In this document: piece after piece, positions 5,178-28,153 of the stretch
Numbering within the stretch: position 1 is the stretch's first letter
Layout: every line of letters begins with the position of its first letter
Position numbers and translations under genes: made by a program
Origin: a virus
Virus record (IMG/VR): IMGVR_UViG_3300015360_000158
Location: 1 to 28,153 of that record
Length of the DNA: 28,153 nt
Direction: 5' to 3' (one strand)
The notes under the pieces: model-generated
Seen by the model: only the letters and a program-made list of their open reading frames with translations
What the model was told of the DNA's origin: nothing
The model's database searches: none

Positions 5178-5263
5178 TCTCCTCTCCTGGTGGATGAATA
5201 CGGGGGCGGAGCGATCCGCCCCCGGCCCCTCTTGCAACAGCTCTTCACGCGAAAGGCGCCACT

Positions 5264-18195: not shown

Positions 18196-20316
18196 ATGCC
18201 GCAAGTCTACGAATTGACGTTTACGCCTGCCTCTTCCAACCCGCTCGTCCCCTCGGGACCGGACGACAAGCACGGGTGGATCTTCCTGCCTGCCCGATCG
18301 GACGACCCGGCCGAAGCCCGCTTCGCGCAGTTCGTGGACAACGGCCTGACGAATTCCAACGTCCCTGCGACCACGGCCCGTCAGGACGCTTTGACGTTCG
18401 CTCAGGGCGAGTCCTTCGACGTGATCTATGCGAGCGTACTTTCGTGGTCCGAGTCCTATCGAGCCTACCTGACTTGGCGGGTTTGGGAGAGGTTGAACGT
18501 CCTCTACGGAGTCGGCGTCGGATGGGACGGACCCTGGATCGTGACTTTCAAGACGTTCGCGGACTTCAAAGCCTACGCCGCCCCCGGACAAGTCCAGATC
18601 ACGATCCCAGACGACGTTTCCGGGAGCCTCAACGGATCGTTCATCTCCTTTTTTTTGGGCGGTCGAACCGAAACTCTCCAGCTATGGGTCGTCGACGTTC
18701 TTGGCGATCCGCCCCCCCCTTCGGATGTAAATAGCGACAACTACGTAAACGGAACGTACTACGTCACCTACCTGGCGGACTCCGACGGCCCTACCATCGC
18801 GGCGGCGATCGAAGGCAAGATCCTCGGTTTGCTTTTCGGCGTCGACTTGAGCCGATCCAGCGACGTTCTCACGATCGGCGACCCGACGGCCTTTTCCGCC
18901 GCGACCGGCCCGGAAGACCCTAGTTCCGCGACGTTCGGCAACCTCCGCCGATGGTTCCAATTCTCCTCTACGTCCTTCTCTTCGCCTACTGTAACCGACC
19001 CCGGATGGATTTCCGGCCCTTTCGACGACTCCAACATCATCCTCCTGACCGCCGACGACGAGACGGCGTACACGGACATTCCCGAAGTCGAGGGATTGGA
19101 TGCGGGGGTAACGATCGCCCCGGCCGGGCCGCCCCCGTCCCTCCCTCTCGAAAACCTGACGGGCTACTGGCACTGGCAAGCGGGCGACGCGGGAGGCGAC
19201 GTCTCCCCGGACTACTCGGGCAACGGCCGCGACGGCACCACGCACGGCGGCGCCTACGCCAGCGATGGCACCTACGGCACGGTCTGGGAACAGGACGGTA
19301 CGTCGAGCGATTACATCGAAGTGCCCACCACGGCCTTCGCCAGCGGCACGCAGCCCATGACGCTGCTCGCACTGGTCAAGCCCGCGTCGGCTGCGGGCGG
19401 CTACACCTGGGCGGCGGCCTTCGGCGATTCCGAAGCCTTCTTTCTCGGGATTCACGGGGATGAGGCGATCGGCGGGGGATTCACTCCCGACTTCGTGGAG
19501 TCGTCCAGCAACCCCATCGTCGCCGACACCTGGCACGCCCTGGCCATCGTCTACGACGGCTCGGCGCTCGCCCTCTACGTCGACGGCACCCTTGTCGCGT
19601 CGGGCTCGGCCTCCCTCACGCACGGCTCGGCGACGTCTTACATCGGGCGGCAGGTCAGCTTTTTTGGGGAGTATTGGAACGGCCAGATCGCCCAAGTCGC
19701 GGCCTTCGACGACGTCGCGCTCTCCGCCGGCCAGGTCGCCGCCTGGGCTGCGGACCCCTTCGGGACGCTCCCCACCGAAACGCCGATCGGCGGGACGTGC
19801 GAAACCGAGACCGAGTGCGCCGGCGAACTCGGCCTGGCTGCGGCCCTCGAAGGGGCCTGCGAAACCGAGACGGAATGCACCGGCGAACTCCTCCCCACGG
19901 TGGCGATCGCTGGGCTGTGCGAGGCGGAGACGGAATGCACGGGCACGCTGTCGCTGTCCGTAAGCCTCGAAGGGTTGTGCGAGACGGAGACCGAATGCGG
20001 CGGGGCTCTGGGGCTGGCGGCCGCCCTCGGCGGCGTTTGCGAAACGGAAACCGAGTGCGTGGGGGGCTTGCTGCCCGGCCTGCCGATCGCTGGCGTGTGC
20101 GAAACGGAGACGGAATGCACGGGCGAGATGGGAACGCTCGTGTCTTTCGACCTTTGCATCTGCCTCGGCCAGGTCTATCCGACGGGCGGCGAGGAACCGG
20201 ACGACGGCTTCGACGACGGAGGCGATCTCGGCGAGGTCGGCGACGGCGGACCGCTGGGATTCGTGGACGAAGATGAACCGCTCGGATACGTCGGCTGTTG
20301 TGGACCGGAGGGGTAG
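18196..20316 (+). CDS. Large fibre/adhesin with LamG-like domain and CETETEC repeats
   Basis: A 706-residue protein with AAGGAGGTGAG before the ATG at 18196, the strongest ribosome binding site of the region. Residues 1-320 are beta-rich, of unknown fold. Residues about 321-530 form a LamG/concanavalin-type jelly roll: GYWHWQAGDAGG, DYSGNGRDGTTHGG, then WHALAIVYDGSALALYVDG and SYIGRQVSFFGEYWNGQIAQ, the standard order. Residues 535-654 hold six 20-residue repeats each starting CETETEC or CEAETEC; the C-terminus is acidic and ends YVGCCGPEG. It is a likely receptor-binding protein, the lectin domain recognising a surface sugar. The repeats are described separately. Confidence 0.8.
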   Translation: MPQVYELTFTPASSNPLVPSGPDDKHGWIFLPARSDDPAEARFAQFVDNGLTNSNVPATTARQDALTFAQGESFDVIYASVLSWSESYRAYLTWRVWERLNVLYGVGVGWDGPWIVTFKTFADFKAYAAPGQVQITIPDDVSGSLNGSFISFFLGGRTETLQLWVVDVLGDPPPPSDVNSDNYVNGTYYVTYLADSDGPTIAAAIEGKILGLLFGVDLSRSSDVLTIGDPTAFSAATGPEDPSSATFGNLRRWFQFSSTSFSSPTVTDPGWISGPFDDSNIILLTADDETAYTDIPEVEGLDAGVTIAPAGPPPSLPLENLTGYWHWQAGDAGGDVSPDYSGNGRDGTTHGGAYASDGTYGTVWEQDGTSSDYIEVPTTAFASGTQPMTLLALVKPASAAGGYTWAAAFGDSEAFFLGIHGDEAIGGGFTPDFVESSSNPIVADTWHALAIVYDGSALALYVDGTLVASGSASLTHGSATSYIGRQVSFFGEYWNGQIAQVAAFDDVALSAGQVAAWAADPFGTLPTETPIGGTCETETECAGELGLAAALEGACETETECTGELLPTVAIAGLCEAETECTGTLSLSVSLEGLCETETECGGALGLAAALGGVCETETECVGGLLPGLPIAGVCETETECTGEMGTLVSFDLCICLGQVYPTGGEEPDDGFDDGGDLGEVGDGGPLGFVDEDEPLGYVGCCGPEG
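19798..20157 (+). repeat. Six tandem 60-bp coding repeats (CETETEC units)
   Basis: The repeats begin at 19798, 19858, 19918, 19978, 20038 and 20098, in exact 60-bp register. Each codes for C-E-T/A-E-T-E-C followed by about 13 hydrophobic or Gly residues. The DNA for the motif differs among units almost only by synonymous changes, so the peptide is what is conserved. Units 1 and 4 (GLAAALxG) and units 2 and 5 (LLPxxxIAG) match each other, giving a higher-order period of three units. Confidence 0.92.
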
Positions 20317-20319
20317 ACG

Positions 20320-20766
20320 ATGGGATTCATCGCAGGCTACGCGAACGAAGGTTCGCCCGTCGACCTGGTGGCGCAGGTCCGCAAAAACAAGACCGACTTG
20401 GCGCTGATCGCCGACATTTCGAGCATCGCCGCCGAGGTCTGGAGGACTTCGCCGCCGCCTCGCTTCCGCGGGCCGAACTGGCGGAACGAGTGGGCGGAGA
20501 TCAGCGGCAGCAAGATCGGCAGCACGATCGCCTTGACGCCCTCCGACGTCATGAGCGACACCGCAACCGACTGGGATCTGGACGCCCTCGGCTCCAACTT
20601 CCTTTGGTCGGCGCCGGCTTCGGCGATCGGGTCGATTCCGGCGGTTAACGACGGCAAGGGCGAATGGCGGCGGGTCGAGATCAAGTTCACTCCGGCCGTC
20701 GGTCAGCCGAAATCGATCTTCTTTTGGTTCGGCCTCTACTTCAGCTACTCCGCGGTGAAATCATGA
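20320..20766 (+). CDS. Fibre-associated protein, unknown
   Basis: A 148-residue beta-rich protein starting 3 bases after the fibre gene, with GGAGGGG overlapping that gene's stop as ribosome binding site. The opening GFIAGYANEGSPVDLVAQV is followed by VRKNKTDLALIADISSIAAE and a C-terminal strand set ending FFWFGLYFSYSAVKS. I know no named family. Direct linkage to the fibre gene and the downstream short helical protein suggests a fibre-attachment or distal domain. The stop overlaps the next ATG (ATGA). Confidence 0.65.
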   Translation: MGFIAGYANEGSPVDLVAQVRKNKTDLALIADISSIAAEVWRTSPPPRFRGPNWRNEWAEISGSKIGSTIALTPSDVMSDTATDWDLDALGSNFLWSAPASAIGSIPAVNDGKGEWRRVEIKFTPAVGQPKSIFFWFGLYFSYSAVKS

Positions 20767-20972
20767 AAATCATGCCTGCGCTGCCGGCCGGAATGACGGT
20801 CGAAGAAGTCCGCGCCGCGAACTTGCGGGAGCTGATCCGGCGGCAACGCGCCGCCCTCGACGAAATGGAGGCGACGATCGGGCGTGACACGTCCCCCGGC
20901 GGCCTCGTCCGCGATCTGGCCAGGGAAGGCGCGAAGTTCATCCCATCTCCGCCGCCCGACGACCTGAAGTAG
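20763..20972 (+). CDS. Short helical protein ending the fibre operon
   Basis: A 69-residue protein starting in the ATGA overlap at 20763. After a Pro/Met N-terminus it has one long amphipathic helix (EEVRAANLRELIRRQRAALD and on) likely to form a coiled coil, then Gly/Pro-rich residues. It could be a fibre trimerisation or chaperone peptide. It is the last gene before a strong terminator, so it closes the late operon. Confidence 0.62.
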   Translation: MKIMPALPAGMTVEEVRAANLRELIRRQRAALDEMEATIGRDTSPGGLVRDLAREGAKFIPSPPPDDLK

Positions 20973-20997
20973 ACCAGCGGAAATTGCAAGCGTTATT

Positions 20998-21033
20998 CGC
21001 CCCGCCGGCTGAGCAAGCCGAGCGGGGCGTTTT
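20998..21033 (+). terminator. Strong intrinsic terminator of the late operon
   Basis: CGCCCCGC-CGGCT (20998-21010) pairs with AGCCG-GCGGGGCG (21016-21029) around the loop GAGCA, with one bulged A at 21021, followed by TTTTCG. This 13-bp GC-rich stem with a T run is the clearest terminator in the window, 26 bases after the last fibre gene. Confidence 0.85.
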
Positions 21034-21085
21034 CGTGCGCCGACGCAACCACCAAAACAATTCCAGAAAAACACGCAACAACCTG

Positions 21086-21113
21086 TTGACGTGGCGTGCG
21101 AGGCGTGTATAAC
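21086..21113 (+). promoter_or_regulatory. Sigma70-like promoter of the rightward early operon
   Basis: TTGACG (-35, 21086-21091), a 16-base spacer and TATAAC (-10, 21108-21113) lie between the late terminator and the gene at 21154. The area is AT-richer than the surroundings and transcription would begin about 30 bases before the ribosome binding site. It is the best consensus promoter I found. Confidence 0.7.
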
Positions 21114-21153
21114 TAGGGCATACAAGTAACCAACCGCACGAAAGGAAACCACG

Positions 21154-21345
21154 ATGAAGACCGCCGCCGAACTCCGCAAAGCCGCCGAACTCCACCGCGA
21201 AGAAGCCGCCCGCTGCGACCGCGAGGCGATGAAGGCGACGATCGCCGGGAACGAATCGAAGATGCACGCCTGGGACGCGGCGGCTGAAGGCCAGCGGGTG
21301 CGGATGCGGGCCTGCCTCCGCAAGGCCGAAGCCCTGGAAGATTAG
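21154..21345 (+). CDS. Short charged coiled-coil protein
   Basis: A 63-residue protein with AAAGGAAA before the ATG at 21154, in a leader identical over 14 bases to that at 15166. Almost the whole length is one Ala/Glu/Arg-rich helix (AAELRKAAELHREEAARCDR and on), with no other motif. It is the first gene after the promoter at 21086. Short helical first genes of this kind are common in phage early operons, but the role is unknown. Confidence 0.6.
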   Translation: MKTAAELRKAAELHREEAARCDREAMKATIAGNESKMHAWDAAAEGQRVRMRACLRKAEALED

Positions 21346-21360
21346 GCCGACGGGAGACGA

Positions 21361-21380
21361 GGGGGCCAGGGAAGGCCCCC
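21361..21380. repeat. GC hairpin downstream of the first early gene
   Basis: GGGGGCC-AGGGAA-GGCCCCC is a perfect 7-bp hairpin 15 bases after the stop at 21345. No T run follows. A close variant, GGGGGC-AAGGAA-GCCCCC, recurs at 21881-21898. It may act as an attenuator or as an mRNA 3'-end stabiliser. Confidence 0.5.
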
Positions 21381-21427
21381 GACCGCGGAATCAACCCGTC
21401 GCCTACCCCATTCAAAGGAGAGTCCCT

Positions 21428-21661
21428 ATGTCCGAACGCAGGAGCCCAACGATGTCAGCCGGGGCGTGGATGCGAGCCTCGCTCGCCACCGAAAGGGTCG
21501 AGGTGTGGGTGTGCGGCCGGCTACTCAACCCGCGGGGGCGTCTCTTGGTGCGAGTCGCTCGGGGGCGTCGTCACCGCTGCGATATGCGCCAAGCCACCAG
21601 CGCGGCGAAGCTTCGAGAAGACGGATGGCGGCTGTCGCACGTTGTGGATGTGGAGGAGTGA
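21428..21661 (+). CDS. Small basic protein, unknown
   Basis: A 77-residue Arg-rich protein with AAAGGAGAG before the ATG at 21428. The central part, VEVWVCGRLLNPRGRLLVRV, reads as a beta hairpin, and the end, KLREDGWRLSHVVDVEE, as a helix-strand. This is a compact alpha/beta pattern seen in small phage proteins, but I recognise no family. It is 5 bases before the next gene, so they are probably cotranslated. Confidence 0.55.
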   Translation: MSERRSPTMSAGAWMRASLATERVEVWVCGRLLNPRGRLLVRVARGRRHRCDMRQATSAAKLREDGWRLSHVVDVEE

Positions 21662-21666
21662 CGAGC

Positions 21667-21867
21667 ATGGCGCAGAGACAGACGATCGGCGTTTGCTGGG
21701 GGGAGATACATCGCACCGGCTGGGACGGGATCAGGCACGCGATCATGGCGACCTGCGAAAAACGCCCCCGGCAAGGGTGCCTCACATGCTGGTGGCATCG
21801 CAGCCAAGAAAGGCAGGCCCAGCGGCTGCAAGCCGAGCAGCCCCGGCCGCCGCGGAACGAACATTAA
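21667..21867 (+). CDS. Small Cys/His-containing protein, unknown
   Basis: A 66-residue protein with GGAGTGACGAGC before the ATG at 21667. It contains CEKRPRQGCLTCWWHRSQER, a C-x7-C-x2-C-x2-H set that could bind one metal ion, after a helical region (GWDGIRHAIMAT). The C-terminal third is Gln/Arg-rich. It is part of the rightward early operon; a role in nucleic acid binding is only a guess from charge and Cys spacing. Confidence 0.55.
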   Translation: MAQRQTIGVCWGEIHRTGWDGIRHAIMATCEKRPRQGCLTCWWHRSQERQAQRLQAEQPRPPRNEH

Positions 21868-21880
21868 GGGCCGGGAGGCC

Positions 21881-21900
21881 GGGGGCAAGGAAGCCCCCTT
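21881..21900. repeat. GC hairpin, second copy type
   Basis: GGGGGC-AAGGAA-GCCCCC followed by TT, 13 bases after the stop at 21867. Loop and stem resemble the hairpin at 21361-21380. It could be a weak terminator or mRNA stabiliser before the regulator gene. Confidence 0.5.
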
Positions 21901-21972
21901 GGTGCGGCAGGCGGTCAGCCGCTACGATCGAAGGGATGAGATCGCGGGGCGGTCTGAAGCGAAGGGGGCGGG

Positions 21973-22224
21973 ATGAGCGACGCAGGGACGGACGCAGCGA
22001 GGGTGCGGCTGGTGATCGCCGCGCACCTCAGGCCGCTGGTGGAGAAGGTCGGGGCGCTGAAGGTGGCGGGCCGGCTGGGGCTCACCCGGCAGACTGTGAA
22101 CCGCTGGTGCAACGGAAGCGCCGTGCCGTCATGCGAGCAGTGGGAGCCCTTGGCGGCGGCGCTCGGGCTGGATCACTGGCACGACATCTTCCCCGCCAAG
22201 CTCGACCCCGGCGGGAATGGTTGA
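21973..22224 (+). CDS. Helix-turn-helix regulator, Cro/XRE-like
   Basis: An 83-residue protein with GAAGGGGG before the ATG at 21973. The middle holds a clear helix-turn-helix: VAGRLGLTRQTVNRWCNGSA, with the Gly turn and the recognition helix RQTVNRW, followed by PSCEQWEPLAAALGL, the usual third helix of Xre/Cro folds. It is a DNA-binding switch protein, either repressor or Cro-like. It is small and lacks a dimerisation or cleavage domain. A perfect palindrome overlaps its stop codon, a plausible operator. It is the only obvious repressor candidate in the window. Confidence 0.75.
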   Translation: MSDAGTDAARVRLVIAAHLRPLVEKVGALKVAGRLGLTRQTVNRWCNGSAVPSCEQWEPLAAALGLDHWHDIFPAKLDPGGNG

Positions 22225-22232
22225 CTAGTCAA
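22221..22232. promoter_or_regulatory. Perfect 12-bp palindrome, candidate operator
   Basis: TTGACTAGTCAA overlaps the stop codon of the HTH gene and lies 24 bases before the next ATG. The palindrome contains TTGACT, which could double as a -35 box, although I see no good -10 at the right distance. A regulator binding here would control the gene at 22257. Confidence 0.4.
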
Positions 22233-22256
22233 GTATTTTGCCCTCGGGAGTCCGCC

Positions 22257-22559
22257 ATGCTCCGCCCGTTGCTGCTCGCCGCCTGCATCGCCTTCCCGTC
22301 GGCCGTCCTGGCTTCGGGCGACGCGCCGCCCCCGCCCGAGCTGGCCGCCGCCGCCCCGGACCACTGGCAAATCGAAGTGAGCTACGCCGTCGCCGAGGAC
22401 ACGCCCGGCCATGTGTGGACCCGCGTCGTCGTGTGGGTGCGGACGCGGGCGGATGGGCCGTGCGAACAGATCGGGGCATGGGACGCAGACAACGCCGCCG
22501 GGGCGCTGCGGCTGCTCGGGCCGGTGGCGGAGAGGATGGCCGAGGGGTGGGGGGAGTAG
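22257..22559 (+). CDS. Small exported protein
   Basis: A 100-residue protein with GGGAG before the ATG at 22257. Residues 1-20 are a signal peptide (LRPLLLAACIAFPSAVLASG, cleavage after ALA). The mature part has a beta pattern, HWQIEVSYAVAEDTPGHVWT followed by RVVVWVRTRADGPCEQIG, and a C-terminal helix with GALRLLGPVAERMAEGWGE. I recognise no family. It is the last gene of the rightward operon, converging on the leftward operon with only 7 bases between stops. An envelope role, for example superinfection exclusion, is possible but not shown. Confidence 0.6.
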   Translation: MLRPLLLAACIAFPSAVLASGDAPPPPELAAAAPDHWQIEVSYAVAEDTPGHVWTRVVVWVRTRADGPCEQIGAWDADNAAGALRLLGPVAERMAEGWGE

Positions 22560-22566
22560 GGGTGTT

Positions 22567-22839
22567 CTAGGATCTGGATGGACGCTCAAACATCTTCCAG
22601 AATTCCCATTCCATGGCGTCAGGGTGCTTTTCCCCATCGACCGGCCACGGTCCCGTGTCCTCGTGGACTGGCGGCATGGTGAAGGATGGGAACACGGCCT
22701 TCAACGCCGCTTCGACGGCTGGGACGTCCGCCTTCTGCACCTTGAGAGGTCGAGTAGGCGGCTGGCCATTCAGCCACACTTCGACTTCCGCTCCTTCCGG
22801 AGTGCGTGTGACTACGATGTTTGTTCTCAGCTCGCTCAT
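22567..22839 (-). CDS. Small acidic protein, last of leftward operon
   Basis: A 90-residue protein on the minus strand with GGGGG before its ATG. It opens with two strands, IVVTRTPEGAEVEVWLNGQP, then a helix, KADVPAVEAALKAVFPSF, and a Trp-rich end, MEWEFWKMFERPSRS. No membrane or signal segment. The family is unknown. It follows the 95-residue gene after a gap of 33 bases. Confidence 0.58.
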   Translation of the reverse strand: MSELRTNIVVTRTPEGAEVEVWLNGQPPTRPLKVQKADVPAVEAALKAVFPSFTMPPVHEDTGPWPVDGEKHPDAMEWEFWKMFERPSRS

Positions 22840-22872
22840 TCAGCCCCCTTTTTTCGGAAGATCAATCTAGAA

Positions 22873-23160
22873 CTACTCCCCGACGCTCGCCTCTTTGACG
22901 CTCGCCAGCACGCTTTCCTTACCCGTCCAGACCATGTGCCAGATCCGCCCGCGGCAGCGGATCGAGTCGGCTTTGAACCACGACAGCGCTTCGCCGAGCA
23001 GCGACCGCAGTTCTTCAGCGGCGGCGACCATGTTCTTTCGGGCGACCGCGGACGGGGGGCGCCGCTCGCTTGCGGCGGCCTGTAGCGACTCCTCAGCCGC
23101 GATGAACCGGGAAGCCGCCGCTTCGACCCGCTGCCGCAGATCGTCGCTCAGCGGGATCAT
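22873..23160 (-). CDS. Small helical protein, middle of leftward operon
   Basis: A 95-residue protein whose ATG overlaps the stop of the lipoprotein gene by 4 bases, so it is coupled to it. It is almost all helix (LRQRVEAAASRFIAAEESLQ, MVAAAEELRSLLGEALSWF), ending with a short strand region containing GRIWHMVWTGKES. I recognise no family. The helical, charged profile and coupling to a lipoprotein suggest a partner protein. Confidence 0.6.
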   Translation of the reverse strand: MIPLSDDLRQRVEAAASRFIAAEESLQAAASERRPPSAVARKNMVAAAEELRSLLGEALSWFKADSIRCRGRIWHMVWTGKESVLASVKEASVGE

Positions 23161-23435
23161 GGGGCGGCCTTCGGGGAGGACGTGGAGGCGGGCTTCCCGT
23201 ACTTCGCGTCAAGTCGCTCGAATTCAGAGTTTCCGGCGGCCTGGATCGCGGCTTCGATCTTCTTCCGGGCTTCTTCAGCCTCTTCCTTGGATAGCGGTTT
23301 TCCAGCGGGGGCCTGACGCGCCTCCAGCCGTTCGACCCTTTCCTGAAGCTCTTTGACCGACGGTTCCGGCTTCGCCGATCCGCACCCGATCGCCGCCAGC
23401 GCGCCCGCTGCGACCAACCATCGAAGCCCGTTCAT
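23157..23435 (-). CDS. Small lipoprotein with coiled coil
   Basis: A 92-residue protein on the minus strand with GGAAAGGACGAGG before the ATG. The N-terminus is a lipoprotein signal: NGLRWLVAAGALAAIGCGS, with the lipobox AAIGC and Cys18 as the modified residue. The mature part is helical (VKELQERVERLEARQAPAGK), a short coiled coil, with a Ser/Pro tail. It heads the leftward operon. Phage-borne lipoproteins often alter the host surface in the lysogen; here that is inference from location. Confidence 0.7.
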   Translation of the reverse strand: MNGLRWLVAAGALAAIGCGSAKPEPSVKELQERVERLEARQAPAGKPLSKEEAEEARKKIEAAIQAAGNSEFERLDAKYGKPASTSSPKAAP

Positions 23436-23556
23436 CGCCTCGTCCTTTCCGCCACCTGATGTTTTTCCGCCCGACCGTCGACGCTACCTCCGCCGCTTGC
23501 GGAATGCAACGAAATCCGCCCCTTTGGGGATCAGCAATTTTGCGGGGTTGAAATGC

Positions 23557-23584
23557 TTGACCTGAACGCTAGTGCAAGTACAAT
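23557..23584 (+). promoter_or_regulatory. Promoter reading into the gene-free structured region
   Basis: TTGACC (23557-23562), a 16-base spacer and TACAAT (23579-23584) give a good sigma70-like promoter pointing right. No convincing gene follows for about 900 bases; instead there is a series of perfect hairpins. The divergent leftward operon starts 120 bases to the left. Confidence 0.5.
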
Positions 23585-23700
23585 CATCGGCAGAGCCCAA
23601 CGCTATGGACGGCGCAACCCAAAGAGTCGAGATGCACGCCATGAACGTCGTCATCGTCGAAAGACGCAGGGACTAGCTTCGGGCTGGAACGCCCTTTCTT

Positions 23701-23725
23701 ATACCCTCAGCAATCCTGAGGGTAT
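23701..23725. repeat. Perfect 10-bp inverted repeat
   Basis: ATACCCTCAG and CTGAGGGTAT are separated by CAATC. It is AT-richer than its surroundings and has no T run on either strand, so an operator, cruciform or RNA hairpin is likelier than a terminator. It lies about 110 bases after the -10 box at 23579. Confidence 0.6.
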
Positions 23726-23813
23726 CCCGCCTCAATTCCGCTCGCGGCCGCCGTCGGCCTGCCGCGCCGGACCCTCCCCGCCGCCTCGGGGAACTCGTCG
23801 GGAAATATGCTTG

Positions 23814-23833
23814 CAGGCGCCAATTGGCGCCTG
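23814..23833. repeat. Perfect 20-bp palindrome
   Basis: CAGGCGCCAATTGGCGCCTG is identical to its reverse complement over all 20 bases. As RNA it gives a tight hairpin with AATT loop; as DNA it is an ideal dimer site. TTTTT follows 9 bases after it (23842-23846). Confidence 0.65.
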
Positions 23834-23845
23834 TAGGCTGCTTTT

Positions 23846-23915
23846 TCGTCCGCGGCTTGAAAAAGCCGGGGCCTCGGGGTGTGCTACCACACTCCGGCCC
23901 CTAACCCGCGGACGA
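23846..23915. ncRNA. Candidate structured RNA, nested three-stem fold
   Basis: TCGTCCGCGG (23846-23855) pairs with CCGCGGACGA (23906-23915). Inside are CGGCTT-GAAA-AAGCCG (23853-23868, a GNRA-loop hairpin that competes for three bases of the outer stem) and GGGGCC (23868-23873) with GGCCCC (23896-23901) enclosing GGGTGTG-CTAC-CACACTC (23877-23894). The junction-like arrangement is unlikely by chance in 70 bases, although high GC favours stems. I know no matching RNA family; strand is not settled, as both strands fold. Confidence 0.4.
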
Positions 23916-23947
23916 GATTCCCGATGTACCCGGGGCCCCCATCCTTA

Positions 23948-24007
23948 GGCTGCCGCGAATTCTAATTCGCGCTCCCTTCTGAGGCAGCCCCACCCCCGCG
24001 TTTTTTT
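23948..24007 (+). terminator. Nested hairpin with distant T run, possible terminator
   Basis: GGCTGCC (23948-23954) pairs with GGCAGCC (23983-23989) around an inner near-palindrome CGCGAATT-CT-AATTCGCG (23954-23971). A run of seven T follows at 24001-24007, 11 bases after the stem. The distance is long for a classical terminator, so part of a larger RNA is an alternative. Confidence 0.35.
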
Positions 24008-24502
24008 GATCGCCTTGCCGGCCTGCGGTGCATTTGCACGGCCGCGCCTGCCTGATGTTCCGCGCCGTTCGCCGGCGCTGGGGTGATACTATGCTTTCAC
24101 GTTGCCGCTGCGGAGGCACCCTGAAATCCAGAGCGGATCGGCCATTTTACGCTTGCAGTGCAGGCGCCTTGGGTCTATGTTTCGCCCTGGCCGCCCTGGT
24201 GCGTGCCGACGAAATGACGCCGCTTCCTTGCGGTCCGCCCGCTGAATCGCTCTCCGCTGGATTGGAGAGAGCCCTTCACGGCCGGTTCAAGTTCCTGATG
24301 CCTGCCCACGGCTCCGATAAAGCGGACCTCTTGGGCCCTTCTTGCCAGGATCAGCGACAGCGCTTTCTGCGCGTCGCTTCCAGATTGGACATCCCCAGAA
24401 CAGCGTTTCGCGCTTTCGTTGCGCGAACGTGTCTCCACGTCGCCGAGCGGCCGACGTCGACGCCTCGTTTTCGCCGCTCGTCATTTGTCTGTAGGTGCAT
24501 TC
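24008..24502. other. Gene-free stretch
   Basis: I see no convincing gene on either strand between the T run and the gene at 24503. Open frames here are Arg/Ser/Cys-rich and lack ribosome binding sites. Only short inverted repeats are visible, such as GTGCA-TT-TGCAC near 24029 and CTCTCC/GGAGAG near 24250. Together with 23436-23947 it makes about 1 kb without coding. Confidence 0.5.
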
Positions 24503-24769
24503 ATGCCGCAGATTCCCGATCCCGTCCTGTACCTGTCCGCGTCCGAAATCGGTCGACTGATCGGGGCTTCGAGCAACGATCTGACGACGCTGCGGCGCTG
24601 GCATCCGATCGACTTGGCGCCGGCCGTGAAGATCGGGCCGCTCCCCGGCTGGCGGGAATCCAGCTTGCCGCTGTGGCGCAAGCACTGGACTTCGCTGAAG
24701 GCTACCCGCGGCGAGCGGGCTTCCCGCTGGATTGCGGCGACCGAGGCCTTCGAGTCGAAGGCCGAGTAG
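24503..24769 (+). CDS. Small putative DNA-binding protein
   Basis: An 88-residue protein with AGGTG before the ATG at 24503. The order LSASEIGRLIGASSNDLTTL then RRWHPIDLAPAVKIGPLPGW suggests a winged helix: a helix-turn-helix followed by a two-strand wing, as in MerR/excisionase-like proteins, and a C-terminal helix WIAATEAFESKAE. No family is certain. It sits in the lysogeny region between the structured stretch and the antirepressor, consistent with a regulator or excision factor. Confidence 0.6.
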   Translation: MPQIPDPVLYLSASEIGRLIGASSNDLTTLRRWHPIDLAPAVKIGPLPGWRESSLPLWRKHWTSLKATRGERASRWIAATEAFESKAE

Positions 24770-24814
24770 CACTTTCGGCCGGCGACGATCGCAGGCTCTG
24801 GTCGAGTAACCGGG

Positions 24815-25225
24815 ATGGCTGCGAAAAGAACTGTACGGATGACACCGTCGGTAAAGCCGACGGTATCCAGGTCTGTTTGCGTCGGCAGCAGCGCGAGTTA
24901 CACTCCGACGTCGCCACCCCTACAAGCGTTCCAACTGTCGGCCCCGGTGCTAGCGCACCGTCCCATCGTGGACGGACGTTCATTTACGCTTGCGCCGCCT
25001 GGGGGAAGTCGGAATTTCTTGCAATACCCGCAAATCATTCCGGCTTATCAGTATGCTTTGAAAGGACTTAGGTTCGTTGAGCCGGTGCTTTCGAGGCTTC
25101 TGGAAGGGCACGGGTTGTTCTCGGATTTGGCAAGTTCTGCTACGTTCCCGCTGCGGCAAGTCGCCGCGGGGCTTCCCAAGGGAGTTTTAGACGAGCAACC
25201 AGGTTTTCATTCCCGTGTTCGATGA
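24815..25225 (+). CDS. Doubtful open frame, possible decayed protein
   Basis: A 136-codon frame from the ATG at 24815, without a clear ribosome binding site. Third codon positions are less GC-rich than in neighbouring genes. The first half is Ser/Thr/Pro-rich; the part AYQYALKGLRFVEPVLSRLL to FPLRQVAAGLPKGVL looks more protein-like. Its last 12 codons run, out of frame, through the duplicated 5' end of the antirepressor gene, so the present stop may be accidental. It may be a remnant rather than a working gene. Confidence 0.3.
   Translation: MAAKRTVRMTPSVKPTVSRSVCVGSSASYTPTSPPLQAFQLSAPVLAHRPIVDGRSFTLAPPGGSRNFLQYPQIIPAYQYALKGLRFVEPVLSRLLEGHGLFSDLASSATFPLRQVAAGLPKGVLDEQPGFHSRVR
24844..24864. 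repeat. Perfect 8-bp inverted repeat
   Basis: ACCGTCGG and CCGACGGT are separated by TAAAG; flanking GA and TC extend the dyad with one mismatch. A second, 6-bp repeat, CGGTGC-TAGC-GCACCG, lies at 24945-24960. Both are in the poorly coding stretch before the antirepressor. Confidence 0.45.
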
Positions 25226-25256
25226 CGCTGGTGACGAGCCTGAGACGGCCGGGTAG
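25191..25256 (+). pseudogene. Decayed copy of the 5' end of the antirepressor gene
   Basis: Codons 25191-25253 read T-SNQVFIPVFDDAGDEPETAG and stop at TAG, against M-SNQVFIPVFDDDGDDPES in the intact gene at 25376. The DNA leader before it is also similar (GGGAGTTTTAG versus GGAGAGTTTCG). The start codon is ACG instead of ATG, with an in-frame TAG directly before it, so it cannot be translated normally. It is a duplicated fragment about 185 bases upstream of the intact start. Confidence 0.75.
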
Positions 25257-25270
25257 CAGAAAAAGCGTCG

Positions 25271-25293
25271 AAGGTTACAGGTTCTGTAACCTT
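25271..25293. promoter_or_regulatory. Perfect 10-bp inverted repeat, candidate operator of the antirepressor gene
   Basis: AAGGTTACAG and CTGTAACCTT with a GTT spacer form a 23-base dyad between the decayed fragment and the intact antirepressor gene, 83 bases before its ATG. Two 10-base half-sites one turn apart fit a dimeric repressor. No T run follows, so a terminator is less likely. Confidence 0.6.
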
Positions 25294-25375
25294 CCTGGAA
25301 ACAGTCCCTAGGACTTTGGATAGGATCGCACTCGGCCCGGCACATCGCCGAGCCGTTCACCCTTGGAGAGTTTCG

Positions 25376-26251
25376 ATGAGCAATCAGGTTTTCATTCCGG
25401 TTTTCGACGACGACGGGGACGATCCCGAAAGCGTCGATGCCCGCGACCTCTGGCAGATGGTCGGCAGCCGGCAGAAGTTCACGGATTGGTTCGAACTGCG
25501 GGTCAAACAGACCCGGGCGGTGGAGGGGAAGGACTTCTGGATTGATTTCGTAAACGTCGGAAACCAATCCACTGGTCGCGGTGGCGATCGCCGTTCACAG
25601 CGGCGTCGCATCACCACCGACATGGCCAAGCATTGGGCGATGCTGGAGGCGACGGACCAGGGCTATGCAATCCGCGACTACTTCATCGAGCGGGACAAGA
25701 AGCTGAAGGCGGTTGGTCCGCTTCTTCAGGCCCTATTGAAGCGGATTCAAGCGATCGAGGAGCGGGCGCCCATGATCCAGCTCGGCAGCGACGGTGCCTC
25801 GCTTGACGGGAAGTCGTTGACCGACCTCGTCATGGCGCTGCGGGCGTCGCAGGGGGGGCACGAATCCATCCCTGAGTTTCTGCGGCTCTACCTTTCGGCC
25901 TTCGTCCGCGGCCGAATCGTCGCCGAGGACATCCAGGAACGCACCCGAAAGGGCGGCCTTCGCGAGGCGGAACCCGGCCGATTCGTGACAGCGATGGTTG
26001 CCGTGCTGCGAGACCTGCGTTACGGCGGGTGCGGCGGCGGCGCTCTCGCGGGGATCGATCTTCCCGGCGATGTCCGCAAGTCGGCCCCCGCCTTCGAGCA
26101 GTGGTACACCCACGAACGCGATCGGCCTTGGGTCGAAAAGGCCTGGACGAAGGTCGTGAACTCGCTCCCGCGAGTGGTCCGCGGTGGAGATCGGCAACGG
26201 GCGCTGCCTGGAATGGAAGGAGGCGACGCCAACCAAAAGCCAACGGGGTGA
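25376..26251 (+). CDS. Phage antirepressor, AntA/AntB family
   Basis: A 291-residue protein with TTGGAGAG before the ATG at 25376. Residues about 20-100 match the AntA/AntB domain: VDARDLWQMVGSRQKFTDWF, then the segment EGKDFWIDF, a linker, and RRITTDMAKHWAMLEATDQG followed by AIRDYFIERDKK. Such proteins bind and disable the phage repressor and so favour induction. The remaining 190 residues, with GGLREAEPGRFVTAMVAVLR and a C-terminal basic stretch, are specific and may hold the partner-binding part. It stands alone between a dyad operator and a terminator, so it is probably an independently controlled switch gene. Confidence 0.85.
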   Translation: MSNQVFIPVFDDDGDDPESVDARDLWQMVGSRQKFTDWFELRVKQTRAVEGKDFWIDFVNVGNQSTGRGGDRRSQRRRITTDMAKHWAMLEATDQGYAIRDYFIERDKKLKAVGPLLQALLKRIQAIEERAPMIQLGSDGASLDGKSLTDLVMALRASQGGHESIPEFLRLYLSAFVRGRIVAEDIQERTRKGGLREAEPGRFVTAMVAVLRDLRYGGCGGGALAGIDLPGDVRKSAPAFEQWYTHERDRPWVEKAWTKVVNSLPRVVRGGDRQRALPGMEGGDANQKPTG

Positions 26252-26277
26252 CCCCCATCGCTGAGGGACACCCCGTT
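26242..26277 (+). terminator. Hairpin terminator overlapping the antirepressor stop
   Basis: AACGGGGTG (26242-26250) pairs perfectly with CACCCCGTT (26269-26277), with an inner CCC/GGG pairing, then CCTGATCGTTTC. The stem includes the end of the coding frame and the stop codon. The T run is weak. Confidence 0.5.
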
Positions 26278-26369
26278 CCTGATCGTTTCTCACCGAGTAG
26301 TTCAGCCTGGTCGGCAAACTGAACTTCCCGGCCCCAAAACCGACCCAGCGACGTGGCAAAGATCGCCAG

Positions 26370-26402
26370 GTTGCCGACCCTCTTGGTAGAGGTTCGGCCA
26401 AC
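26370..26402. repeat. Long hairpin upstream of excisionase and integrase
   Basis: GTTG-CCGA-C-CCTCT (26370-26383) pairs with AGAGG-T-TCGG-C-CAAC (26388-26402) around the loop TGGT: 13 pairs, one C/T mismatch and one bulged C. The sequence TTGCCGACC in its left arm recurs inverted near 26310 (GGTCGGCAA). The area may hold recombinase or excisionase arm sites, or control int expression. Confidence 0.5.
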
Positions 26403-26486
26403 TTCAGGAGTCTACGCGCCTCGCTGGGCGGTTTGAAAGTTTTTTCCCTCGAAAAATTGCAATCCACCCAAACGGGAGCGTTTTTT

Positions 26487-26744
26487 ATGGCTACCGCGAC
26501 CGCCGGTTTTTCGATCGACCCGAACGACTTCTACCGCCCCTGCGACCTTTGCGAGCTGTTGGGCGTTTCGCCGCGGACCGTCACCAACTGGCTCAACCCG
26601 CCCGCCGGCCGCCGCCGGCTGCGCTGCTGGCGCCAGGGGGGGAAAGCGGCCTTCGTGGTCATCCGGGGCAAATGGTTGATCGACTTTTTCAACTGCGGAG
26701 AGAAAGAGGATGACACGGAGGAAGAAGCGGACGATCAAGGTTAA
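26487..26744 (+). CDS. Excisionase-like helix-turn-helix protein
   Basis: An 85-residue protein; GGGAG before a T run precedes the ATG at 26487. Residues about 15-50, FYRPCDLCELLGVSPRTVTN then WLNPPAGRRRLRCWRQGG, are a MerR-type winged helix-turn-helix; excisionases and torI-like factors share this fold. It ends in an acidic tail (EKEDDTEEEADDQG). The 3' end overlaps the integrase start by 35 bases, the usual xis-int coupling. It likely bends DNA and sets recombination direction. Confidence 0.72.
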   Translation: MATATAGFSIDPNDFYRPCDLCELLGVSPRTVTNWLNPPAGRRRLRCWRQGGKAAFVVIRGKWLIDFFNCGEKEDDTEEEADDQG

Positions 26745-28029
26745 GGTCGTCGCTCGCCGCGGCCGCGGGGTCTACGTCTTCCGCTGGCAGGACCACGACG
26801 GCAACTGGAATCAGCAAACCTCCGACGTCCAGATTGGCGGCCCCTCGGCGCGAGAAGAGCGGAAATCCCGCAATATCGCCGAGCGGGCCGCCGCTGATTT
26901 GGAAGTGAAGCTCAACGCCCTGCCGACCGACGACGAGCGATTCGAGCCGCACATTGCGACCTTCGTTCGGACGGTCCAGGCCGACGGGGCGACGATGGAC
27001 CACCTCCTTGAAACGCGATCGCGCCTTGAGCGTTTCGCCCGCGAGGCGCGGACCCCGCAAGACGCCCCGCTGGCCAGCGTCCGCGAGATCACCGAAGCCT
27101 GCATCGTCGATTTCGTCAACGGGTTGAAGCGCATCCTTCGCCCGCGGAAGCCGCGGACCGTGGCGAACTACAGCCGCAAGTTCGCCGTTCCTCGCACGCC
27201 CCCACCCGTTCCGCCGACTCCGCCCCCGGTTCCCGCCAGCCAGCAAACCAAGAACCACTACATCACCACGATCAAGGCGTTCTGCGCCTACCTGACGCGG
27301 CACAAATTCTTCGAGCAAAGTCCGGCGGAACGGCTGTCGCGGGGCTCGACGGAAGCGGACCGCCGGCGGGAAAGGCGAGCCCTCACCCCCGACGAGTTCG
27401 CGAAGCTCGTTGCGGCGGCCGCAGCCGGCGGGACGGTGGAAACCCTCACCGGCGCCGATCGGGCGATGCTCTACATCCTCGCCACCTGGACGGGCTTCCG
27501 TGCCAAGGAGCTGGCTTCCCTCACGCTCCGCTCGTTCACGTTGGACGGCCCGTCGCCGGCGGTGCGGTGCAAGGCCGCTCACTCCAAACACCGCAAGGAC
27601 GACTCCATCCCCATCCACCCCGCGGTGGTGTCTCGCCTGCGCGAATGGGTGCAGGCGAAGGGGCTGGTTTCGCTCGACGCCCCCCTCTTCGATTTGAAGG
27701 CGCCAGGCGGCCGGATGCGGAAGACCGCGAAGATGATGCGCGTCGACCTCGCCGCCGCCGGCCTGCCGTACCAGGACGAAGCCGGAGCGTTCGCGGATTT
27801 CCACGCCAACCGAGCGGCGTTCGTCACCAACTTGGCGAACGCGGGGGTGAATTTGTTCCGGGCCCAAAAACTGGCGCGGCATTCGGACCCGAAGTTGACC
27901 GCGAATATCTACGCCAAGGCGACGCCGGATCAGCTTTCGGAGGACGTCGACCGTCTTCCCGACCCGCCGTCTCTGGGAGGTTCACCGTCGCCAGAAGCGG
28001 CCCAGGTGCTTCGCTTCAAAAGCGGTTGA
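26710..28029 (+). CDS. int: Tyrosine recombinase, phage integrase
   Basis: A 439-residue protein starting at the ATG at 26710 inside the excisionase gene, with AGAAAGAGG just upstream. An N-terminal beta domain (VYVFRWQDHDGNWNQQ) resembles an arm-binding or AP2-like fold; residues about 80-205 are the core-binding helices, interrupted by a Pro-rich insert (161-175). The catalytic domain shows Arg264 (TGFRAKELASL), a Lys region around 293 (HSKHRKDDSIPIH), His365 and Arg368 (FHANRAAF), His391 (LARHSDPKLT) and the nucleophile Tyr401 (NIYAKAT). All catalytic residues are present, so it should be active. It stands about 80 bases from the tRNA-Arg attachment target. Confidence 0.93.
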   Translation: MTRRKKRTIKVKVVARRGRGVYVFRWQDHDGNWNQQTSDVQIGGPSAREERKSRNIAERAAADLEVKLNALPTDDERFEPHIATFVRTVQADGATMDHLLETRSRLERFAREARTPQDAPLASVREITEACIVDFVNGLKRILRPRKPRTVANYSRKFAVPRTPPPVPPTPPPVPASQQTKNHYITTIKAFCAYLTRHKFFEQSPAERLSRGSTEADRRRERRALTPDEFAKLVAAAAAGGTVETLTGADRAMLYILATWTGFRAKELASLTLRSFTLDGPSPAVRCKAAHSKHRKDDSIPIHPAVVSRLREWVQAKGLVSLDAPLFDLKAPGGRMRKTAKMMRVDLAAAGLPYQDEAGAFADFHANRAAFVTNLANAGVNLFRAQKLARHSDPKLTANIYAKATPDQLSEDVDRLPDPPSLGGSPSPEAAQVLRFKSG

Positions 28030-28108: not shown

Positions 28109-28153
28109 TATGCCCGGCAGGGCTCGAACCTGCAACCTTCGGCTCCGGAGGCC
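28109..28153 (-). tRNA. tRNA-Arg (anticodon CCG), 3' part, cut by right edge
   Basis: On the minus strand the window holds the 3' half: loop CTCCGGA giving anticodon CCG flanked by GGC/GCC, variable loop AGGTT, perfect T arm GCAGG-TTCGAGC-CCTGC, acceptor half CGGGCAT and discriminator A. The 5' half lies beyond the window. No CCA is encoded. Its 3' end faces the integrase, the usual place of a prophage attachment site. Confidence 0.85.
28109..28153. other. Probable prophage attachment site (att) in tRNA-Arg
   Basis: A tyrosine integrase gene ending about 80 bases before the 3' end of a tRNA gene, with its 3' end pointing at the prophage, is the standard att arrangement. The phage half then restores the tRNA end. 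I could not define the core, since the other prophage end with the duplicate lies outside the window. The core probably lies in the T arm and acceptor region. Confidence 0.6.

Follow-up and report, generated by a model that had tools for sequence, protein, structure and literature searches.

The locus and its genes

The window analysed here is an entire IMG/VR virus record (IMGVR_UViG_3300015360_000158; 28,153 bp, 65% GC), which encodes a portal protein, a protease-major head fusion, a tape measure protein, an AntA antirepressor and a tyrosine integrase. Head genes related to those of the phage are present in 52 of 392 genomes from the phylum to which the planctomycete Stieleria tagensis belongs, and on this sequence relationship a planctomycete host is likely for the uncultured phage. 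Beside the integrase, the last bases of the record (28110-28153, minus strand) read as the 3′ portion of a tRNA-Arg gene, which is probably the attachment site, as expected next to an integrase. At the other end, a tRNA gene with the anticodon UUA (1296-1368; ochre suppressor-like, with mismatched stems) lies 209 nt past a tRNA-Met gene, and TAA is the stop codon in 7 of the 24 called genes, the protease-head gene included; reading TAA as sense would lengthen structural proteins.

A second contig of the same phage, UViG_3300020203_001037, is identical over the structured region described below, so the structured sequence is not an assembly accident, and it contributes no sequence variation. 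This twin contig (L046 / L183) fuses positions 18954-27567 of the window to 3752-1, inverted, with an 11-nt overlap. The junction breaks the integrase and the head gene, and represents either an assembly chimera or a true inversion.

The region of interest falls in a gap without a recognisable gene (23436-24502). To its left is a leftward lipoprotein-like gene (23157-23435), and to its right, on the plus strand, are a small ORF of 88 aa with no family match (24503-24769), which is the first gene downstream of the candidate RNA, and the gene for an antirepressor with an AntA/AntB domain (25376-26251; PF08346, E = 1.8e-14; PHROG Ant families). Both flanking genes point outward, so the terminator-like hairpins in the gap serve no annotated upstream gene. 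The gap adjoins genes that probably control lysogeny. Two perfect inverted repeats in the DNA that separates the small ORF from the antirepressor gene, ACCGTCGG-N5-CCGACGGT at 24844-24864 and GAAGGTTACAG-GTT-CTGTAACCTTC at 25270-25294, are operator candidates, and a truncated antirepressor 5′ end (25186-25243; 81% identical to 25371-25428) lies upstream of the intact gene.

Codon-usage scores in the gap were mostly negative. They were clearly so on both strands in nearly all 150-nt frames across 23401-24180, weakly positive coding patches being confined to 24181-24480, away from the structured part, and the ORFs at 23553-23948 and 24028-25071 matched no Pfam family. A preliminary description of this DNA had stated that no gene explains the region, and the negative scores on both strands together with the ORFs lacking Pfam matches bear this out.

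Inverted repeats and a promoter-like site

The same description had placed a promoter and a chain of perfect hairpins within the gap, and every piece that it listed was found in the sequence. These are a perfect 10-bp inverted repeat with a 5-nt loop, ATACCCTCAG-N5-CTGAGGGTAT (23701-23725), a perfect 20-bp palindrome (23814-23833), a three-stem fold near 23846-23915, a hairpin CGCGAATT/AATTCGCG (23954-23971) and a run of seven Ts (24001-24007); a 9-bp helix that closes a 131-nt domain had been overlooked. In 451 bp there are four perfect inverted repeats whose arms reach 8 bp or more, where 0.14 would be expected, and two whose arms reach 10 bp or more, where 0.012 would be expected. Neither count was reached in any of 1000 shuffles, in agreement with the earlier remark that such palindromes are hard to get by chance: the hairpins are real and well past chance. 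The repeat at 23701-23725 has no T run on either side and is absent from the scored terminators, and is therefore not a canonical terminator; it may be an operator or a leader hairpin.

Upstream of these hairpins, a sigma-70-like promoter (TTGACC-16-TACAAT; 23557-23584, plus strand) is predicted by consensus match, with a start near 23591. The promoter-like site that had been described is thus present (10 of 12 matches), and it is the one such site found in 2.7 kb, where 0.3 would be expected.

A compact fold specific to the plus strand

A sliding scan of the whole window on both strands ranked 23701-24000 on the plus strand first; of its 560 frames of 200 nt, those that start at 23701 and 23801 on this strand were the most extreme (z = -8.2 and -7.5). 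The exceptional folding is confined to a core at 23796-23926 (z = -10.05 on the plus strand, with dinucleotide-preserving shuffles as the control), narrower than the region first described. On the left, 23590-23795 is ordinary (z = -0.9), as is 23927-24010 on the right (z = -2.5), where a 3′ hairpin region (23932-23991) forms weak structure alone. In a ranking of 12,346 140-nt frames, which covered the window together with 22 tiles from contigs of related phages, the core came second, behind a C-rich low-complexity stretch; the structured windows in those phages were either coding or low-complexity sequence or a tRNA with a terminator. Chance folding of GC-rich non-coding DNA would fit the 65% GC of the window and the fact that the core is a single sequence for which no relatives were found, but it is hard to reconcile with a z of -10 at the core when the adjoining non-coding DNA at 24010-24500 reaches only -1.7, and we regard it as the most improbable of the explanations considered here.

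The predicted RNA domain is 131 nt long and consists of two nested three-way junctions. In the outer junction, the 9-bp closing helix P1, formed by CGUCGGGAA (23796-23804) and UUCCCGAUG (23918-23926) with a mean pair probability of 0.96, encloses P2 and P3. P2 is a 13-bp hairpin with an AAUU loop (23809-23838; pair probability 1.00) that includes the 20-bp palindrome, and P3 is a 10-bp helix between 23844-23853 and 23908-23917 (pair probability 0.97) on which the 3′ arm of P1 is directly stacked. In the inner junction, P3 encloses P3a (23854-23867; GGCUU-GAAA-AAGCC, a GNRA tetraloop hairpin) and P3b (23868-23901; a 14-bp hairpin with a 2-nt bulge and a CUAC loop). We counted the GAAA tetraloop and the direct stacking of P1 on P3 in favour of an RNA.

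The two strands of the core do not fold alike. The plus strand forms 51 pairs, five of them G.U, whereas the minus strand forms 43 pairs and no G.U (z = -7.1), since the five G.U pairs become A.C mismatches there. The absolute energies of the wider region are alike on both strands, so the difference in z over the whole region is partly one of composition, and a shuffle of the linkers is the cleaner test. In this test P2, P3a and P3b were held fixed and only the sequence that joins them was shuffled, in 1000 controls. On the plus strand the observed fold beat all 1000 controls (z = -5.1), while on the minus strand 70 of the 1000 were as good (z = -1.5), and because the controls were exceeded on the plus strand only, the joining helices are a property of that strand. 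Joining helices on one strand are not predicted by independent terminators or by DNA palindromes, and the result argues for one strand-specific RNA over loose palindromes. That a selected fold of the plus-strand RNA exists is in our view probable; a strand-specific structure of single-stranded DNA could in principle give the same result.

The proposal that the region holds a structured regulatory RNA that ends at 24007 accordingly survives in part. The strand-specific folding, the helices beyond the hairpins and the promoter-like site support a structured plus-strand RNA. Its end at 24007 is not supported: the T run is situated about 10 nt past the last stem, outside any canonical terminator, and fails terminator scoring, and a long-range closing helix (23659/24007) was rejected, as 91.5% of shuffles fold equally well.

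A folded or bound DNA site had been raised as well, in the form of a replication origin, a partition site or a packaging site, and the region is indeed palindrome-rich, gene-free and AT-poor. Against such a site stand the strand asymmetry with its G.U pairs and the lack of iterons in the region. With terminases of the lambda gpA family, the cos site adjoins the terminase genes. The terminase here is of this family and is encoded at 62-694 and upstream, about 23 kb from the core, which does not occupy the position of a lambda-type cos; a packaging element is therefore unlikely, cos being expected beside the terminase at the other end of the phage. The primase is also at that end (in the twin contig its gene is found upstream of the terminase), which leaves a replication origin unsupported. 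Taken together, we consider a DNA site of any of these kinds very improbable.

Searches for homologues

The only other copy of the core that we found is that in the identical twin contig. Neither blastn against phages and plasmids nor exact-pattern scans of IMG/VR returned anything besides this contig, and the blastn matches in the 392 genomes of the phylum were almost all in a low-complexity GC stretch at about 23730-23805. Covariance model R1, which recovers its own source at 158 bits, found no homologue in the 392 genomes, in 196 more draws, some of which overlap, in 41 virus records of relatives or in 132 loci; the genome searches were strictly filtered, with no genome in the set known to be positive, and so limit homologues rather than exclude them. 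One weak genomic match to the model (L259) was rejected, as it is a plain bidirectional terminator between host genes. The integrase, the antirepressor and the small ORF, used as anchors, located no diverged homologue of the core; 80 related contigs were found with the portal, and the loci compared have only the structural half of the phage in common. No Rfam family matched, hits up to E = 10 being at the level of chance.

These searches bear on the possibility that a palindromic mobile element of the host, of the MITE or REP/BIME type, landed in the phage and that its inverted repeats yield the fold. Like MITE, REP/BIME and ERIC sequences, the core is short (131 bp), palindromic and gene-free, and its length, its terminal inverted repeats CGTCGGGAA/TTCCCGATG and the nesting of its palindromes look MITE-like. 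Unlike such elements, it showed no second copy in the genomes and contigs sampled: it occurs once in the phage, its palindrome has no other copy in IMG/VR, and no copy was detected by BLAST or model in the 392 genomes of the phylum or by model in the 196 further draws. The P1 ends also show no target-site duplication (the flanks, ...GAACT and TACCC..., differ), and the G.U pairs favour an RNA. We therefore judge a mobile element to be improbable.

Possible termination within the core

An intrinsic terminator was defined as a GC-rich hairpin with a U tract immediately after it and a d score above 0. P2 followed by TGCTTTTTC is terminator-like by this definition (d = +4.4), no other hairpin of the gap scoring above 0 on the plus or the minus strand, and is similar to the other terminators of the phage (895-924, d = +2.6; 5201-5224 on the minus strand, d = +6.6). 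The locus could then be a cluster of hairpins in which P2 ends a short transcript that runs rightward (about 23591-23846), the others being terminators or operators with no joint fold. The weak genomic match to R1, a terminator of the same look, is in keeping with this, as is the presence in unrelated phages of ATACCCTCAG hairpins with runs of T or A beside them. However, P1 and P3 form from the linkers better than in any of the 1000 shuffles, and on the plus strand only, and the remaining hairpins fail terminator scoring on both strands. We find a mere cluster of this sort unlikely, though it deserves to be kept in mind.

While P2 resembles intrinsic terminators and attenuators in its GC-rich hairpin, its U tract and its score, it differs from them in lying inside two enclosing helices, with its U tract paired within P3. 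After synthesis of the 3′ arm of P2, no antiterminator is left as an alternative. Either the transcript stops near 23846 and the remaining domain is seldom made, or P2 is leaky or conditional. Termination at P2 is the chief problem of the RNA reading: if the stop is efficient, a transcript started at the 23557 promoter would lack the remainder of the domain.

Comparison with known phage RNAs

In phages P1 and P7, C4 RNA targets the ant operon. The gene order here, with the promoter at 23557, the core at 23796-23926, the small ORF at 24503 and the AntA gene at 25376, recalls c4-icd-ant of P1. Like C4 (RF01695), the predicted core is a folded untranslated RNA with multiple stems, encoded after a promoter and ahead of a small ORF and an AntA-type antirepressor gene, and it possibly pairs with the ribosome-binding region of that ORF. 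It is unlike C4 in its architecture, as C4 is about 77 nt long with three simple stem-loops and the core has 131 nt and nested junctions. C4 RNA, part of the P1/P7 immunity system, pairs through its loops a′ and b′ (PMC5320573), whereas the core exposes only tetraloops (AAUU, GAAA and CUAC) and offers no exposed loop that would match the ribosome-binding site of a target in the C4 manner. RF01695 yielded nothing at the gathering score in the window and nothing up to E = 10 in 23436-24520 or 24500-26500. Identity with C4 RNA is thus ruled out by the model and by architecture.

The core also recalls GOLLD and ROOL, which are ornate non-coding RNAs of phages and prophages whose function is unknown. 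Those RNAs are several hundred nt long (GOLLD often over 800 nt) and are usually near tRNA islands (PMC12286853), unlike the 131-nt core, which lies more than 22 kb from the tRNAs of the phage, and the GOLLD and ROOL models of Rfam gave no match.

A possible target in the downstream operon

The translation start of the small ORF (24489-24520, plus strand), a possible target of the RNA, contains the collinear repeats CTGTAGG and AGATTCCCGAT, which are found in the same order in the core, at 23831 and 23915, respectively. Shuffled cores match in 0.1% of trials (P about 0.001), and among 23 gene starts that of the small ORF is the best for repeats in common with the core; an equal repeat score occurs at one other site in the window, within the antirepressor gene. 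A 12-nt match to the core in the antirepressor gene near 25900 is at about chance level. The arms of the core are able to pair with the small-ORF start, about 570 nt separating the core from this gene, but the duplex energy is no better than that of shuffles (P = 0.59), and antisense pairing judged by duplex energy was not convincingly significant at any gene start. The collinear repeats are a weak hint of antisense action or mimicry, and serve as a lead only.

Past the antirepressor gene, a second structured-RNA candidate of 135 nt, with a cloverleaf-like four-way junction, lies at 26276-26410 on the minus strand. It folds with z = -4.2 on the minus strand vs. -2.8 on the plus strand and is the second-ranked region in the window scan, and a search for homologues found none above chance.

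Interpretation

The structural feature is real and strand-specific, and its most likely identity is that of an orphan phage RNA with a regulatory role in the lysogeny region. The AntA gene downstream supports this, because antirepressors of that kind are RNA-controlled in P1 and P7. On this reading, the gap would encode a compact untranslated RNA on the plus strand, presumably transcribed from the promoter at 23557, either as part of a 5′ leader or as a separate RNA. It may be a regulatory RNA of the lysogeny module that acts, most plausibly, on the next operon, formed by the small ORF at 24503 and the antirepressor gene at 25376. One option is an attenuator, in which the U tract of the terminator-like hairpin P2 would be captured by the enclosing helix P3; another is an RNA that pairs where translation of the small ORF starts. 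That the RNA controls the downstream operon is a tentative proposal, to which we give somewhat less credence than doubt. The combined proposition, a plus-strand RNA fold that acts as a regulator of the lysogeny module on the downstream operon, seems to us to fall a little short of an even chance. We think it quite unlikely that the locus represents a new class of phage immunity RNA, in which a 131-nt nested-junction RNA of unrelated fold would control an AntA operon in a C4-like manner, paired with the minus-strand RNA at 26276-26410.

A structured phage RNA is a known kind of element, and this one falls in no known family. The structural prediction is well supported, but it concerns a single sequence, and it matters mainly as a lead. 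To our knowledge, few systems with RNA regulators of lysogeny have been described, and for this group of phages knowledge of RNA-based control is scant. If an ant operon is controlled here by a compact orphan RNA encoded next to its antirepressor gene, the case would be a second one of its kind and open to test.
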